59,460 nt of DNA from Pseudorhodoferax soli. Its GTDB lineage: Bacteria > Pseudomonadota > Gammaproteobacteria > Burkholderiales > Burkholderiaceae_C. Under the pieces are notes generated by a model. The model worked only from the letters and a program-made list of their open reading frames with translations, did not search any database and was not told the origin of the DNA. The position numbers and the translations under genes are program-made. The stretch spans positions 1 through 59,460 of the forward strand of contig NZ_QPJK01000020.1 in NCBI RefSeq assembly GCF_003337555.1, written 5' to 3'. Position 1 is the first letter of the stretch. Every line of letters begins with the position of its first letter. Positions 12,609 to 59,365 of this stretch are shown one piece after another.

Positions 12609-12953
12609 TCACTGTGCCGAGAATTGCTGGAACGCATCCATTACGCGGTTGGAGTAGACGAAGGCCGCGCCCGTGTTCAGCGCCATGGCAGTGCCAAGTG
12701 CATCGGACAGCTCAGCCTCCGTGACACCCACCTCCTTTGCGGCTTTGGCATGCGCTGCGATGCATCCGTCGCAGCGCGTAGTCACTGCCACAGCCAACGC
12801 GATCAGTTCCTTCGTCTTGGCGTCTAGAGCGCCATTGCCATTCTGATTGGCGTTGAACCCCTGGTACGCGGTCATCATTTTGGGGTTTGCCTTCATCAGC
12901 AACCCACCAGCGGCGCGGTTCTTCCTCAGCGTTTCGATCCAATCCATCAACAT
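12609..12953 (-). CDS. AhpD-like / carboxymuconolactone decarboxylase-family protein
   Basis: 114-residue CMD-family protein. The redox CxxC appears as TTRCDGCIAAHAKAAKEVG, with His four residues after the second Cys, as in AhpD-type proteins. Such proteins reduce peroxides or act as small-substrate decarboxylases/isomerases. The ATG at 12953 is chosen because AAGGAG lies 5 bases ahead of it. It sits 24 bases behind a Bug-protein gene and in front of the split LysR. The specific substrate is unknown. Confidence 0.85.
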   Translation of the reverse strand: MLMDWIETLRKNRAAGGLLMKANPKMMTAYQGFNANQNGNGALDAKTKELIALAVAVTTRCDGCIAAHAKAAKEVGVTEAELSDALGTAMALNTGAAFVYSNRVMDAFQQFSAQ

Positions 12954-12977
12954 AGGAACTCCTTCTTTGTAAAAAAA

Positions 12978-13958
12978 CTAGTCGACTGAAATGCCTGCCA
13001 ACTTGATCACGCTGGCGTATGCCGCAACATCGGACCGCAAGCGCGCCCGCATGTCGGCACTACTCGTGAACACCGGCTCGGAGCCCTGCATGCGAATGGC
13101 TTGAAAGGACGCGTCTGTTCTTGCAGTTGATATGGCTTTCTGAAGACGGTCCAGCACCGGCTGAGGCGTTCCAGTTGGCGCAACAAGCCCCATCCACGAG
13201 GTCCATGCATAGCCCTCCACCCCAGATTCCGCGATCGTCGGCACGTCGGGCAGTTGCACCCAGCGGGTGGGGCCCGTCACCGCAAGCCCCTTCAGGCGTT
13301 TCGCGGCAATGAACGTCTGGGAGACGTTCACATTGACGAACGCGACGGGGGTCACATTGCCCATCACGTCTTGCGCAGCCTGCGGCGCCCCCTGGTAGGG
13401 CACATGCCGCATGCGGATGCCGGCCTTCTGCTTTAGGAGCTCGGCGGCCAGATGGCCCGGCGTCCCTATGCCAGGCGAGCCATAGGCCACCTCGTCCGGC
13501 TTGCTCTTCGCGTACTCGATCAGCTCCTTGATGGTGCTGAACGGCGCCGAAGGGTGTGCAACCACCGATGTGTTCGCTTCCGCCAGGATGGTGAGCGGCT
13601 CGAAATCACGCAAGGGGTCATACGACAGCTGTCGAAACAGCGTGACATTCGCTGCGTTGGCACTTGTCGCCAACAGCAGCGTGTAGCCGTCGCCGGCAGC
13701 CTTGGCAACGTTGTTGGAGCCGATGTTGCTGCCACCACCGGGCCTGTTCTCGACGATAACAGGCGTTCCAAGGTCTTTGCTGATGAAGTTGCCGACGTGC
13801 CTGCCGAGGAAGTCAGCAAGACCCCCGGGCGGAAACGGGACAACGATCCGAATGGTCTTTTGTGGCCATTCGCTGGCCGCATGCGCGCCGACGAATGGCG
13901 CTGCTGCGGCTGCAGCGATCAGCTGCCGACGGCCGGCATTGATCCGCGTGTTTTGCAT
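12978..13958 (-). CDS. Bug/TctC-type periplasmic binding protein (1)
   Basis: 326-residue extracytoplasmic solute receptor of the tripartite tricarboxylate family. A Tat-like or Sec signal (GRRQLIAAAAAAPFVGAHA) is followed by the family core IRIVVPFPPGGLADFLGR, VIVENRPGGGSNIG and MRHVPYQGAPQAAQDVMGN. The start MQNTRIN is preferred over MYKEETM because AAGGAGGAG precedes it. No TctA/TctB genes are in the window, so its transporter is encoded elsewhere or it serves as a sensor. The ligand is probably a carboxylate of the surrounding pathway. Confidence 0.92.
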   Translation of the reverse strand: MQNTRINAGRRQLIAAAAAAPFVGAHAASEWPQKTIRIVVPFPPGGLADFLGRHVGNFISKDLGTPVIVENRPGGGSNIGSNNVAKAAGDGYTLLLATSANAANVTLFRQLSYDPLRDFEPLTILAEANTSVVAHPSAPFSTIKELIEYAKSKPDEVAYGSPGIGTPGHLAAELLKQKAGIRMRHVPYQGAPQAAQDVMGNVTPVAFVNVNVSQTFIAAKRLKGLAVTGPTRWVQLPDVPTIAESGVEGYAWTSWMGLVAPTGTPQPVLDRLQKAISTARTDASFQAIRMQGSEPVFTSSADMRARLRSDVAAYASVIKLAGISVD

Positions 13959-14015
13959 TGTCTCCTCCTTGTACATACCGAAGAAGGACGCCGAGACTGC
14001 GCTCGACGCCTGCGG

Positions 14016-57177: not shown

Positions 57178-58179
57178 ATGTTCACTCAGTCAGGCCCCGC
57201 GCAACGTGCAGTGACCCGGCGAAAGCTAATGGAGTCAGCCGCAGGATCAGCAGCGGTGGTCGCCGCCGGGCTATGGGGCGCGCGACCAGCGCACGCTTCA
57301 GCGCCATTGAAGATCATCTGCCCATTCACCTCGGGCAGCGGGGCCGACGTGATCGCTCGCCACTTTGGAGAGCGCCTTAGCGTCTCGCTCAGGCGGCCGG
57401 TCATCGTAGACAACAAGACCGGTGGCAACGGTGTCATCGCGGTCCAGGCCCTCAGATCGCAGCCACCCGATGGAAGCACGATTCTCCTAGGAAACGTCTC
57501 GATCATGGCGATCAACCCGGTCCTTTACAGGAACCTGGGCTACCAGCCTGCGCAAGACTTCCTGCCCTTGTCGGGTGTCTATCGAGGGTCGTCGGTGTTT
57601 GCCGTTCATCCTGGCTCGCAGATCACGAGTCTCGAGCAGTTGGTCGCTCGCGCAAAACAGGCGCATGTCTCCGTCGGCTCCTACTCGCCCGGCTATCGCC
57701 TGGCGGCCGAATACCTAGCAGGTCTGGCCAACGTGAAGTTCACGGACGTCCCCTATCGCGGCCAAGCACCACTGCTCGCAGACCTGATGGGAGGACAGAT
57801 GGACGCGGCCGTTTTGGAGTACGGCGGCGCGATGCCTTCCATCCAGGCTGGACGGGTTCGCGCACTGGCCATCACGAGCGAGCAACGTCATCCTCAACTG
57901 CCGGATCTCCCTACGGTCAAGGAGCTGGGCTATCCGGAGTACTACCACTACGGCTGGACAGCCTTCTTTGCTCACCCGCAGACCCCCGCAAAGACAGCAC
58001 AAGGGTTGACCGACGCAATCAGTGCCACCTTGCGAGATCCAGGAACGATCGGGTACATCCACAAGACCGTTCTCGGCGAGCCCATGCCGCTGGCCCCCGG
58101 GCAGCTGTCCTCCTTCATCCAAACAGAGACCGATCGGTTCGCGCGTGTCGCGCGCGCCGCCGGCATGGAACCAATATGA
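57178..58179 (+). CDS. Bug/TctC-type periplasmic binding protein (6)
   Basis: 333 residues with a Tat-like signal (TRRKLMESAAGSAAVVAAGL). Core: LKIICPFTSGSGADVIARHF (SGSGAD in place of PPGGxxD), VIVDNKTGGNGVIAVQALRS, FTDVPYRGQAPLLADLMGGQ. The altered first ligand loop suggests a different ligand from the other five. AAGGAGA precedes the ATG. The stop overlaps the GrdB-like gene (ATGA). Confidence 0.92.
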   Translation: MFTQSGPAQRAVTRRKLMESAAGSAAVVAAGLWGARPAHASAPLKIICPFTSGSGADVIARHFGERLSVSLRRPVIVDNKTGGNGVIAVQALRSQPPDGSTILLGNVSIMAINPVLYRNLGYQPAQDFLPLSGVYRGSSVFAVHPGSQITSLEQLVARAKQAHVSVGSYSPGYRLAAEYLAGLANVKFTDVPYRGQAPLLADLMGGQMDAAVLEYGGAMPSIQAGRVRALAITSEQRHPQLPDLPTVKELGYPEYYHYGWTAFFAHPQTPAKTAQGLTDAISATLRDPGTIGYIHKTVLGEPMPLAPGQLSSFIQTETDRFARVARAAGMEPI

Positions 58180-59105
58180 ACGCCGAGACCCACCCAGATC
58201 CAAATCCCGAGCCGCCCGCGACCGTCGCTGAGGAGCTGGGGTTTTTGGCGGCGATCGATGCGCCCGTCCCCTACATGCAGCGTTTGCGAGACTGGAAGCT
58301 TGCGGTGGGCGGCGGCACTCCCTACGTGTGGGCGCACTTCGGCGACGTCCCCTTCAGTGCGCTGCGCAAGCCGTTGACTGCAAGTTCCATCGCCCTCATT
58401 ACCACCGCTGCGCACTATCAACCGGATAAGGGCGATCAGGGTCCAGGTTCGCGCTACAACGCTCAGGCCAAGTTCTTCGAGGTATACGCAAGCCCCACCT
58501 CCAACGATCCGGATCTGCGGGTGTCCCATGTTGGGATCGATCGAAAGCACACTTCGATGGAGGATCCGCGGTGCTGGTTTCCCCTTGATGCTCTGCGCGC
58601 GGCTGCCAGCGCTGGCCGTGTCGGCCGTGTGGCGCCTCGCTTCTTCGGCGTTCCAACGGTGCGTGATCCGCGAACCACCATCTGGATTCACGCGGGCGAA
58701 GTGCTGCGCCTCTGCATGGAAGACCAGGTCGATGCTGCGATCCTCATCCCCAACTGCACGATCTGCCATCAGACCCTTAGCCTGGTGGCACGGATGCTGG
58801 AACAGTCGGGCATCCCGACGGTCATCATGGCGTGCGCCAAAGACATCGTCGAGCATGTCGGAGTGCCGCGGGCGCTTTTCAGCGACTTTCCCCTCGGCAA
58901 CGGCGCCGGTCGCCCAGGAGACGTCGAATCACAGATCGAGACGCTCGGCCGCGCATTGGACCTTCTCGAAAGCGCACGCGCGCCGCGCACGACGGTGCAA
59001 TCCCCGCTGCGCTGGTCGGACGACCCTCGATGGAAGAGCGACTTCTCCAATGTCGAGAACATTCCCGCGGACCAACGGCTCCATGTGCAAGCTGCTAGCC
59101 GTTAA
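58176..59105 (+). CDS. GrdB/PrdB-like reductase subunit with Cys in place of Sec
   Basis: 309 residues. The segment [20 protein letters not shown] (Cys194, Cys197) corresponds to the selenoprotein B active site of glycine/betaine/sarcosine/D-proline reductases, where the first residue is usually Sec; the codon here is [23 protein letters not shown] and [20 protein letters not shown] also fit the family. It would cleave a C-N or C-X bond reductively. Coupled by overlap to Bug 6 and followed by a flavin disulfide reductase that could supply electrons. The proteobacterial members are biochemically undefined. Confidence 0.7.
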
Positions 59106-59137
59106 GACCCCCTACCAGGATCGACGAGAACATTTTC

Positions 59138-59365
59138 ATGAACGCATGTGACTTCGAGACCGGGTTCGACTTTGACCTCTACGTGGTTGGGGGTGGCAGT
59201 GGCGGCGTTCGTGCTGCCAGGAAGGCCGCCGAGGCTGGAGCGAAAGTCGGTATGGCCGAGGTCTCAGCGCTTGGCGGAACCTGCGTCAACGTAGGGTGCA
59301 TTCCAAAGAAGATTTACAGCTTCGCTTCCGCTGGCCGTTCAGCAGTCCGTGAAGCGGCAGCACTT
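59138..59365 (+). pseudogene. Pyridine nucleotide-disulfide oxidoreductase (glutathione-reductase-like), truncated
   Basis: About 76 residues of the N-terminus: FAD motif [20 protein letters not shown] and the redox disulfide [19 protein letters not shown]. The CVNVGC active site and IPKK belong to the glutathione/trypanothione reductase branch. The frame stops exactly where the IS3-type end begins at 59366 (the stop codon is the first TGA of the IS). The remaining ~380 residues are absent from the window. Confidence 0.9.

Follow-up and report, generated by a model that had tools for sequence, protein, structure and literature searches.

A Pseudorhodoferax soli gene module that may release sulfite from mercaptocarboxylic acids, with a crotonase-family protein as candidate desulfinase

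The window analysed here comprises bases 1–59460 of contig C20 (NZ_QPJK01000020.1) of Pseudorhodoferax soli, whose genome is 8.16 Mb in size and is assembled in 30 contigs. It carries three gene runs (modules 1, 2 and 3), which a preliminary description had linked into one organosulfur pathway. Pfam and NCBIfam scans of the window verified the genes named there in class and place, including two class I CoA-transferase A/B pairs, two CaiB enzymes, an AMP-ligase, three GMC enzymes, MmsA and an aldehyde dehydrogenase; by comparative synteny, module 3 alone is a demonstrable unit. Judging from its sequences, this gene set probably serves to oxidise an organic acid that contains sulfur, to attach it to CoA and to free the sulfur as sulfite. 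Tentatively, the 42.5–57.1 kb part can be assigned to one module for a mercaptocarboxylic acid, in which a thiol dioxygenase (CDO) would form the sulfinate, a class III CoA-transferase (CaiB2) would transfer CoA to it and a crotonase-superfamily protein would cleave the C–S bond of the sulfinoacyl-CoA, releasing sulfite. More guardedly still, crotonases of this subfamily, that of the solved structure 3ISA, may be a second sulfinoacyl-CoA desulfinase, unrelated to the known enzyme, Acd; together with a dioxygenase of the 3-mercaptopropionate dioxygenase (3MDO) type and a CaiB protein, they might form a minimal route of three genes by which many Acd-free bacteria turn mercapto acids into sulfite.

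The genes of module 3 are listed in contig order. Those of the minus-strand run (CaiB2, crotonase, CoAtA2, CoAtB2, ACS, GMC3, ALDH, GMC2, TctC4) are separated by intergenic gaps of −4 to 103 bp; beyond CaiB2 follow the FAD/NAD protein, SorB, SorT, TctC5, LysR1, TauD, CDO, LysR2 and YeiH. C7 is another contig of the same genome.

36.6–57.1 kb: module 3, a minus-strand run from 47504 to 36591, then the FAD/NAD protein through YeiH
36591..37559, minus strand: TctC-type binding protein TctC4 (PF03401), last gene of the run
37608..39230, minus strand: GMC2 oxidoreductase, 11 bp from the ALDH gene
39242..40678, minus strand: aldehyde dehydrogenase (ALDH), semialdehyde-dehydrogenase-like (PF00171; TIGR01780 480 bits, under the cutoff of 646)
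40782..42419, minus strand: GMC3 oxidoreductase, 59 bp after ACS; may serve in peripheral alcohol oxidation
42479..44014, minus strand: ACS, AMP-forming acyl-CoA synthetase (PF00501)
44011..44748, minus strand: CoAtB2, subunit B of the pair; AibB entries best, ~100 bits
44745..45536, minus strand: CoAtA2, subunit A of the glutaconate-CoA-transferase fold; 5MZW (AibA) best, 111.7 bits
45610..46356, minus strand: crotonase-superfamily protein (ECH*), proposed C–S-cleaving enzyme
46353..47504, minus strand: CaiB2, class III CoA-transferase (PF02515, 410 bits), proposed to activate the sulfinate (or thioether) acid with CoA
47698..49218, plus strand: FAD/NAD(P)-binding protein (PF13454), divergent from CaiB2
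49316..49840, minus strand: SorB-like cytochrome c (CAVCH; PF13442), true start probably within the open reading frame (ORF)
49672..51036, minus strand: SorT-family sulfite dehydrogenase with an RRRS twin-arginine-like signal, true start probably within the ORF, at ~50904
51011..52102, minus strand: TctC5 binding protein, a frequent partner of the core
52126..53031, plus strand: LysR1 regulator
53059..54135, minus strand: TauD/TfdA-superfamily dioxygenase (PF02668), putative thioether or C–S hydroxylase
54322..54897, plus strand: 3MDO-type thiol dioxygenase (CDO), GTG start
54917..55924, minus strand: LysR2 regulator, divergent from YeiH; 58% paralogue in the C7 cluster
55995..57071, plus strand: YeiH/Pse putative sulfite/sulfate exporter (TIGR00698 358.1 bits against 232.6); 72% paralogue in the C7 cluster

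The crotonase gene (45610–46356), missing from the gene list of the preliminary description, proved to be the most informative one. Its product has the crotonase superfamily fold. Comparison with 5ZAI shows that the two glutamates that we take to be the catalytic residues of hydratases are replaced by Asp120 and Gly140, in 78 of 78 aligned sequences, which argues against an enoyl-CoA hydratase; Arg88, Glu93, Asp120 and Arg137 are invariant in the same 78. The nearest solved structure is 3ISA, named merely a putative enoyl-CoA hydratase/isomerase. Methylmalonyl-CoA decarboxylase is not among the 50 fold matches listed for the protein, which carries no weight either way. A search of the open-licence PMC literature, outside which most subscription papers lie, found no description of this crotonase as a desulfinase. 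The adjoining CaiB2 belongs to the class III CoA-transferases (PF02515), as required for an Act/Acd-type route; Asp164, presumably the catalytic Asp, is among its positions conserved in at least 99% of 78 rows. CaiB2 shares only 34–36% with the CaiB proteins of the dioxygenase clusters on C7 and in the relative G023, the latter of which adjoins Acd.

The thiol dioxygenase announced at 54322 was confirmed. It scores 182.9 and 179 bits against two entries named 3-mercaptopropionate dioxygenase and 206.2 and 183.8 bits against two bacterial proteins entered as cysteine dioxygenase type I, which presumably belong to the same family, 6xb9 being a 3MDO. Mercaptosuccinate dioxygenase (Msdo) reaches 27.6 bits and other cysteine dioxygenases at most 25.1, and by sequence proximity CDO is of the 3MDO type. 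Residues S137, H139, Y141 and R150 are invariant across the 10 rows of alignment A2; in position and role, the first three presumably form the Ser-His-Tyr triad and R150 is presumably the carboxylate-binding Arg. In the CDO tree, the window protein lies outside the four-row clade of the Acd-linked CDO (starred 99/90). A test for a single CDO clade of crotonase-linked loci did not find one: the tree requires six changes of this label, and the CDO of C7 that has a crotonase nearby falls together with the Acd-linked CDO.

When species genomes were scanned with alignment A4, 179 crotonase relatives were obtained, and the 80 best of them served as loci; Achromobacter, Bordetella, Paraburkholderia or Caballeronia account for 54 of the 80. 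Matches were counted within the stored flanks (full in 54/80, short in 26/80) at a coverage of at least 60% and an identity of at least 40%. CaiB2 was found in 78/80 loci (median identity 71%), CoAtA2 and CoAtB2 in 59/80 each (medians 74% and 82%), ACS in 51/80 (54%), TctC5 in 47/80 (53%), CDO in 44/80, TctC2 relatives in 43/80 and the FAD/NAD protein in 29/80 (43%). TauD occurs in 7/80 (60%), and L104 is the single locus with both CDO and TauD. The six loci with LysR1 relatives comprise L093, L099, L104 and L110, together with TauD, and L116 and L128, without it. Rarer neighbours are CMD (5/80), ALDH and TctC1 (2/80 each) and SorT, LysR2, GrdB and a GMC gene (1/80 each). The SorT relative stands beside the core in L066 only; the matches to GMC1, GMC2 and GMC3 all fall in L050, probably on one gene, which is a 73% relative of GMC3. 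CDO and the crotonase also lie on either side of an IclR gene in the alphaproteobacterium Neoroseomonas (L058). The synteny search suggested in the preliminary description has shown a core that recurs with CDO or with TauD, without joining modules 1 and 2 to module 3.

The neighbourhood was also viewed from the dioxygenase side, in 100 relatives including the own genome; a strong CDO match had at least 159 bits, and CDO matches of up to 69 bits and crotonase matches of up to 122 bits were dropped before counting. CDO was present in 15 of these genomes, the crotonase subfamily in 11 and both in nine (Fisher p = 1.3e-7). This table is partly biased by circularity, because alignment A1 was built from CDO-linked loci, and the scan anchored on the crotonase tests the association more fairly. 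Three CDO contexts were recognised. In one, CDO is accompanied by crotonase and CaiB2 relatives, with touching triplets in G076, G081 and G069, a touching crotonase–CDO pair without CaiB in G097 and distances of a few kb in G023 (C1) and on C7; touching crotonase–CDO genes span four families of the order. In another, found in 5/15 CDO-bearing relatives (loci L034, L036, L038, L040 and L041), the partner is a protein with three rhodanese domains (by Pfam in G016), whose 52–64% relatives lie beside CDO in G021, G056, G062 and G066. The remaining one has a true Acd (G023, C2), scoring 706 bits against PDB 5AF7/5AHS versus 230 for the next entry. From the CDO side, no context was assigned to the relatives G058, G061, G071 and G090 or to the loci L037, L039, L044 and L046; gene finding predicted few genes in L034 and none in L039. 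In many Achromobacter loci, such as L060, a Sir2-family gene (family f9, 22/80 loci) is divergent from CDO, and enolase-superfamily (MR_MLE) genes stand beside CDO or CMD at L031:7882–9102, L037:8358–9578 and L065:5394–6596.

Contig C7 of the own genome (106–186 kb) bears two further CDO genes. One lies with crotonase, CaiB2, LysR2 and YeiH paralogues, and Acd and CoAtA1/B1-like genes are nearby; the other, in the 172–186 kb region, is accompanied by two acyl-CoA dehydrogenases, a CaiB, ECH_2 and ECH proteins and a BisC paralogue.

The preliminary description had seen no acyl-CoA-dehydrogenase-like desulfinase. This holds for the window, where tblastn searches gave no hit with Acd or with two further acyl-CoA dehydrogenases as queries; the genome does have an Acd ortholog, at C7:125387–126565, adjoining a CaiB gene. 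Among the 100 relatives, Acd was found in three, the own genome included. Acd and CDO were then surveyed in 42 crotonase genomes (38 of the 80 named loci and four more, picked for spread), where part of the first-look candidates was scored in large genomes (for example, 44/66 in the Acd search). An Acd ortholog of at least 61% is present in 7/42, with one further 47% relative, and CDO is present in 36/42. Of the genomes having both crotonase and CDO, 6/36 have Acd and 30/36, among them G076, G081, G069 and G097, gave no Acd match at the cut-off; the 30 include the L099 genome, in which two short stretches next to the core resemble Acd (73% over 120 residues, 40% over 149). Inside module 3, the crotonase is the likelier desulfination partner than Acd.

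From the observed gene identities, residue losses and gene neighbourhood we infer the following substrate, reaction order, crotonase reaction and direction of export. Optionally, a hydroxyalkyl thioether might serve as the source, its alcohol and aldehyde being oxidised by GMC3, ALDH and GMC2 (37.6–42.4 kb), and the thioether might be opened by the TauD-family dioxygenase. CDO would convert the thiol to the sulfinate, and CaiB2 would move CoA onto it from a donor such as succinyl-CoA. The glutamate-less crotonase would then cut the C–S bond of the sulfinoacyl-CoA by means of its oxyanion hole, akin to the loss of CO2 catalysed by methylmalonyl-CoA decarboxylase, giving an ordinary acyl-CoA and sulfite. 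YeiH would export the sulfite, which SorTB would oxidise in the periplasm. According to the accessible part of PMC1431709, enolate stabilisation is a common capability of crotonases, methylmalonyl-CoA decarboxylase of the same superfamily included; the analogy with C–S cleavage would be one of reaction type. If the substrate is an alpha-sulfinoacyl-CoA, its cleavage by the crotonase would parallel a decarboxylation, whereas 3-sulfinopropionyl-CoA would need another mechanism. An alpha-sulfino substrate (mercaptoacetate from thiodiglycolate via the TfdA-like TauD) was considered as fitting decarboxylase-like chemistry; a literature search on such sulfino compounds was empty, none of the papers listed in a search on thiodiglycol contained that word, and this substrate stays speculation.

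Several observations weigh against a desulfinating crotonase. The enolate logic is weak for 3-sulfinopropionyl-CoA because the sulfinate is beta, and sulfinosuccinate has been reported to decompose spontaneously (PMC5373536, accessible part). The own genome holds a true Acd (86% to the Acd of L033) and a neighbouring CaiB on C7, so desulfination could happen with help from that contig. No CDO match was found in 6/42 crotonase genomes, and in L102, L108, L113 and L115 the neighbours of CaiB2 and the crotonase are a VanA-type Rieske oxygenase and a transporter of short-chain fatty acids, while the maps show no CoA-transferase pair; the crotonase may therefore not always meet a sulfinate. The branch of the window CDO is long, and the clade of the Acd-linked CDO includes the C7 CDO sited near a crotonase. 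Sulfite genes are seldom beside the core elsewhere (SorT 1/80, YeiH 0/80), although both are within module 3, in support of sulfite release, and SorT recurs in L066.

The main alternative, which we consider rather unlikely, puts the crotonase before CDO: CaiB2 or ACS would activate a thioether acid such as thiodipropionate (TDP), the crotonase would cleave the thioether-CoA to a thiol acid and an enoyl- or hydroxyacyl-CoA, CDO would oxidise the thiol and the C7 Acd would desulfinate the product. The portion of PMC6370202 available for Variovorax paradoxus TBEA6 points this way: TDP-CoA stabilises Ech-20, and mutants without ech-20 or ech-30 fail to grow on TDP but still grow on 3-sulfinopropionate; the presence of Acd on C7 and the divergent arrangement of the TauD and CDO genes in the window agree with it. 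This order fits poorly with the 30/36 crotonase- and CDO-bearing genomes without an Acd match and with the loss of both hydratase glutamates, and it would leave the sulfinate in the three-gene sets without a known desulfinase. It appears less probable still that the core (CaiB2, crotonase, CoAtA2/B2 and ACS) serves the breakdown of a branched or dicarboxylic acid without sulfur, with CDO and TauD as frequent unrelated neighbours in catabolism-rich regions. The proximity of CoAtA2/B2 to AibAB, a 3-methylglutaconyl-CoA decarboxylase, would suit such a function, as would the TctC-type binding proteins, which are typical for carboxylates, and the 36/80 loci without CDO in the fetched flanks (flanks being short in 26/80). 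CDO genes that touch the crotonase gene in four families, CDO in 36/42 crotonase genomes and the arrangement in Neoroseomonas argue for a functional link with the dioxygenase instead.

The assignments of other module 3 genes were refined. The second CoA-transferase pair has the corrected coordinates 44745–45536 and 44011–44748. In CoAtB2, the catalytic Glu is replaced by Val55 in 58/58 rows, so that it does not qualify as a class I CoA-transferase; the meaning of this position is taken from the accessible part of PMC7756340. The nearest PDB entries are AibA/AibB of Myxococcus xanthus, where this position is likewise not Glu, although the scores are only ~100–112 bits and CoAtB2 has Val in place of Cys. 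Because the transferase glutamate is absent, CoAtA2/B2 more probably acts as a lyase or hydrolase, in the manner of AibAB, than in CoA transfer. The pair announced as SorAB (49316–50904) is a sulfite dehydrogenase with a SorB-like cytochrome c, but its catalytic subunit belongs to the SorT family (NF052247 619.7 bits versus a cutoff of 570) and not to SorA (208.3 versus 600). The dioxygenase at 53059 is a member of the TauD/TfdA superfamily that passes no NCBIfam cutoff (best 50.6 versus 400). Its nearest solved structures are FrbJ (93 bits) and a 'predicted hydroxylase' (86 bits), the listed neighbours all being weak and other hydroxylases; from this proximity and the missing NCBIfam pass, taurine is not indicated as its substrate. 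YeiH at 55995 passed its model.

The two other modules are as follows.

12609..21463, minus strand: module 1, GMC1, TctC2, BetC, TPR protein, MmsA, TctC1 and CMD, a predicted sulfate-ester operon
22498..29665, plus strand: module 2, TctC3, BisC, CoAtA1, CoAtB1, CaiB1 and IclR2

BetC (17091–18677) is well founded as a choline sulfatase: it passes the equivalog TIGR03417 (566.6 bits versus 433.45) and has CAPSR, a C-x-P-x-R motif, at residue 52. MmsA (14016–15524) likewise passes TIGR01722 (692.4 versus 448.5 bits). The predicted reductase BisC (23547–25832) is of the bisC family, yet under the model cutoff (835 versus 1017.55). The first CoA-transferase pair has the corrected coordinates 25952–26755 and 26752–27504; the large ORFs 26083–27504, 36054–37583 and 21527–22684 were judged spurious by codon usage and replaced.

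The preliminary description had read all three modules as one pathway of the thiodipropionate/mercaptopropionate type, with MmsA and GMC enzymes serving the 3-hydroxypropionate half. We consider this very unlikely, as the scheme of dioxygenase, CoA activation and sulfite release fits module 3, whose parts recur together, but is not spread over all the modules. BetC, CoAtA1, CoAtB1 and CaiB1 occur in 0/80 crotonase-anchored loci and BisC and MmsA in 1/80 each; CoAtB1, found in 10/100 relatives, is near CDO only in G000 and G023, the other listed CoAtB1 and BisC relatives either not sharing a contig with CDO or belonging to genomes that have no strong CDO match. Modules 2 and 3 are, moreover, separated by a phage-type integrase and an istB remnant (35374–36500), the latter ~83% to the IS21 istB of plasmids. 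In favour of a wider pathway, a BisC paralogue (63%) on C7 is separated by one gene from a paralogue of CDO, relatives of CoAtA1/B1 are near CDO on C7 and in G023, the C7 172–186 kb cluster combines two acyl-CoA dehydrogenases, CaiB, ECH_2, ECH, CDO and BisC, and a 68% relative of the window CMD is one gene from CDO in L037. Since the CoAtA1/B1-like genes and the BisC paralogue lie near CDO genes of C7, module 2 has a weak link to thiol metabolism and to module 3; module 1 stands as a predicted sulfate-ester operon of its own, and the synteny shows no link between this BetC module and the core.

The closest known systems share parts of module 3. In the accessible part of PMC6370202, catabolism of 3,3'-thiodipropionate and 3-mercaptopropionate by V. 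paradoxus TBEA6 involves mdo, act, acdA, ech-20, ech-30 and the crotonase VPARA_05510; a 3MDO-type dioxygenase, a class III CoA-transferase, a crotonase-family protein and sulfite as a product are common to both. The window lacks Acd, and its module has CoAtA2/B2, ACS, SorT and TauD, in comparison with a TBEA6 gene list that is known in part; with Ech-20, Ech-30 and VPARA_05510, the window crotonase is compared at the level of the family. The 3,3'-dithiodipropionate genes of Advenella mimigardefordensis DPN7 (LysR, family III transferase, Acd, Mdo, AhpD-domain protein and TctC), as given in the portion of PMC5373536 seen, have Mdo, family III transferase, TctC and LysR in common with the window. 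In DPN7, as in L033, Acd adjoins Mdo, whereas in the window the crotonase adjoins CaiB2 instead. If the proposed desulfination by the crotonase is correct, it would fill the desulfination gap for 3MDO-type dioxygenases in Acd-free genomes, give a function to 3ISA, named only a putative hydratase/isomerase, add C–SO2 cleavage to crotonase chemistry and provide markers for the breakdown of industrial mercapto acids and thioethers.

In five genomes of the same genus, no match above the cut-offs was obtained for a CDO of the 3MDO type, a crotonase of this subfamily, CoAtB1 or BisC, and the region therefore looks accessory. Plasmid searches (34 of 59 kb-ends covered, 25.0–34.5 kb outside the search) returned transposon and short gene matches only, without synteny. 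The left contig end (1416–10636) has a chromate transporter, a TniA/TniB/TniQ set and IS66 and IS3 transposase genes. A sigma-70-type factor and a thioredoxin-like gene lie at 30530–32070, the latter with a 56% relative in the C7 cluster (L031:17803–18282). At the right contig end (58176–59105), a weak GrdB-like (PF07355) protein follows a TctC gene.

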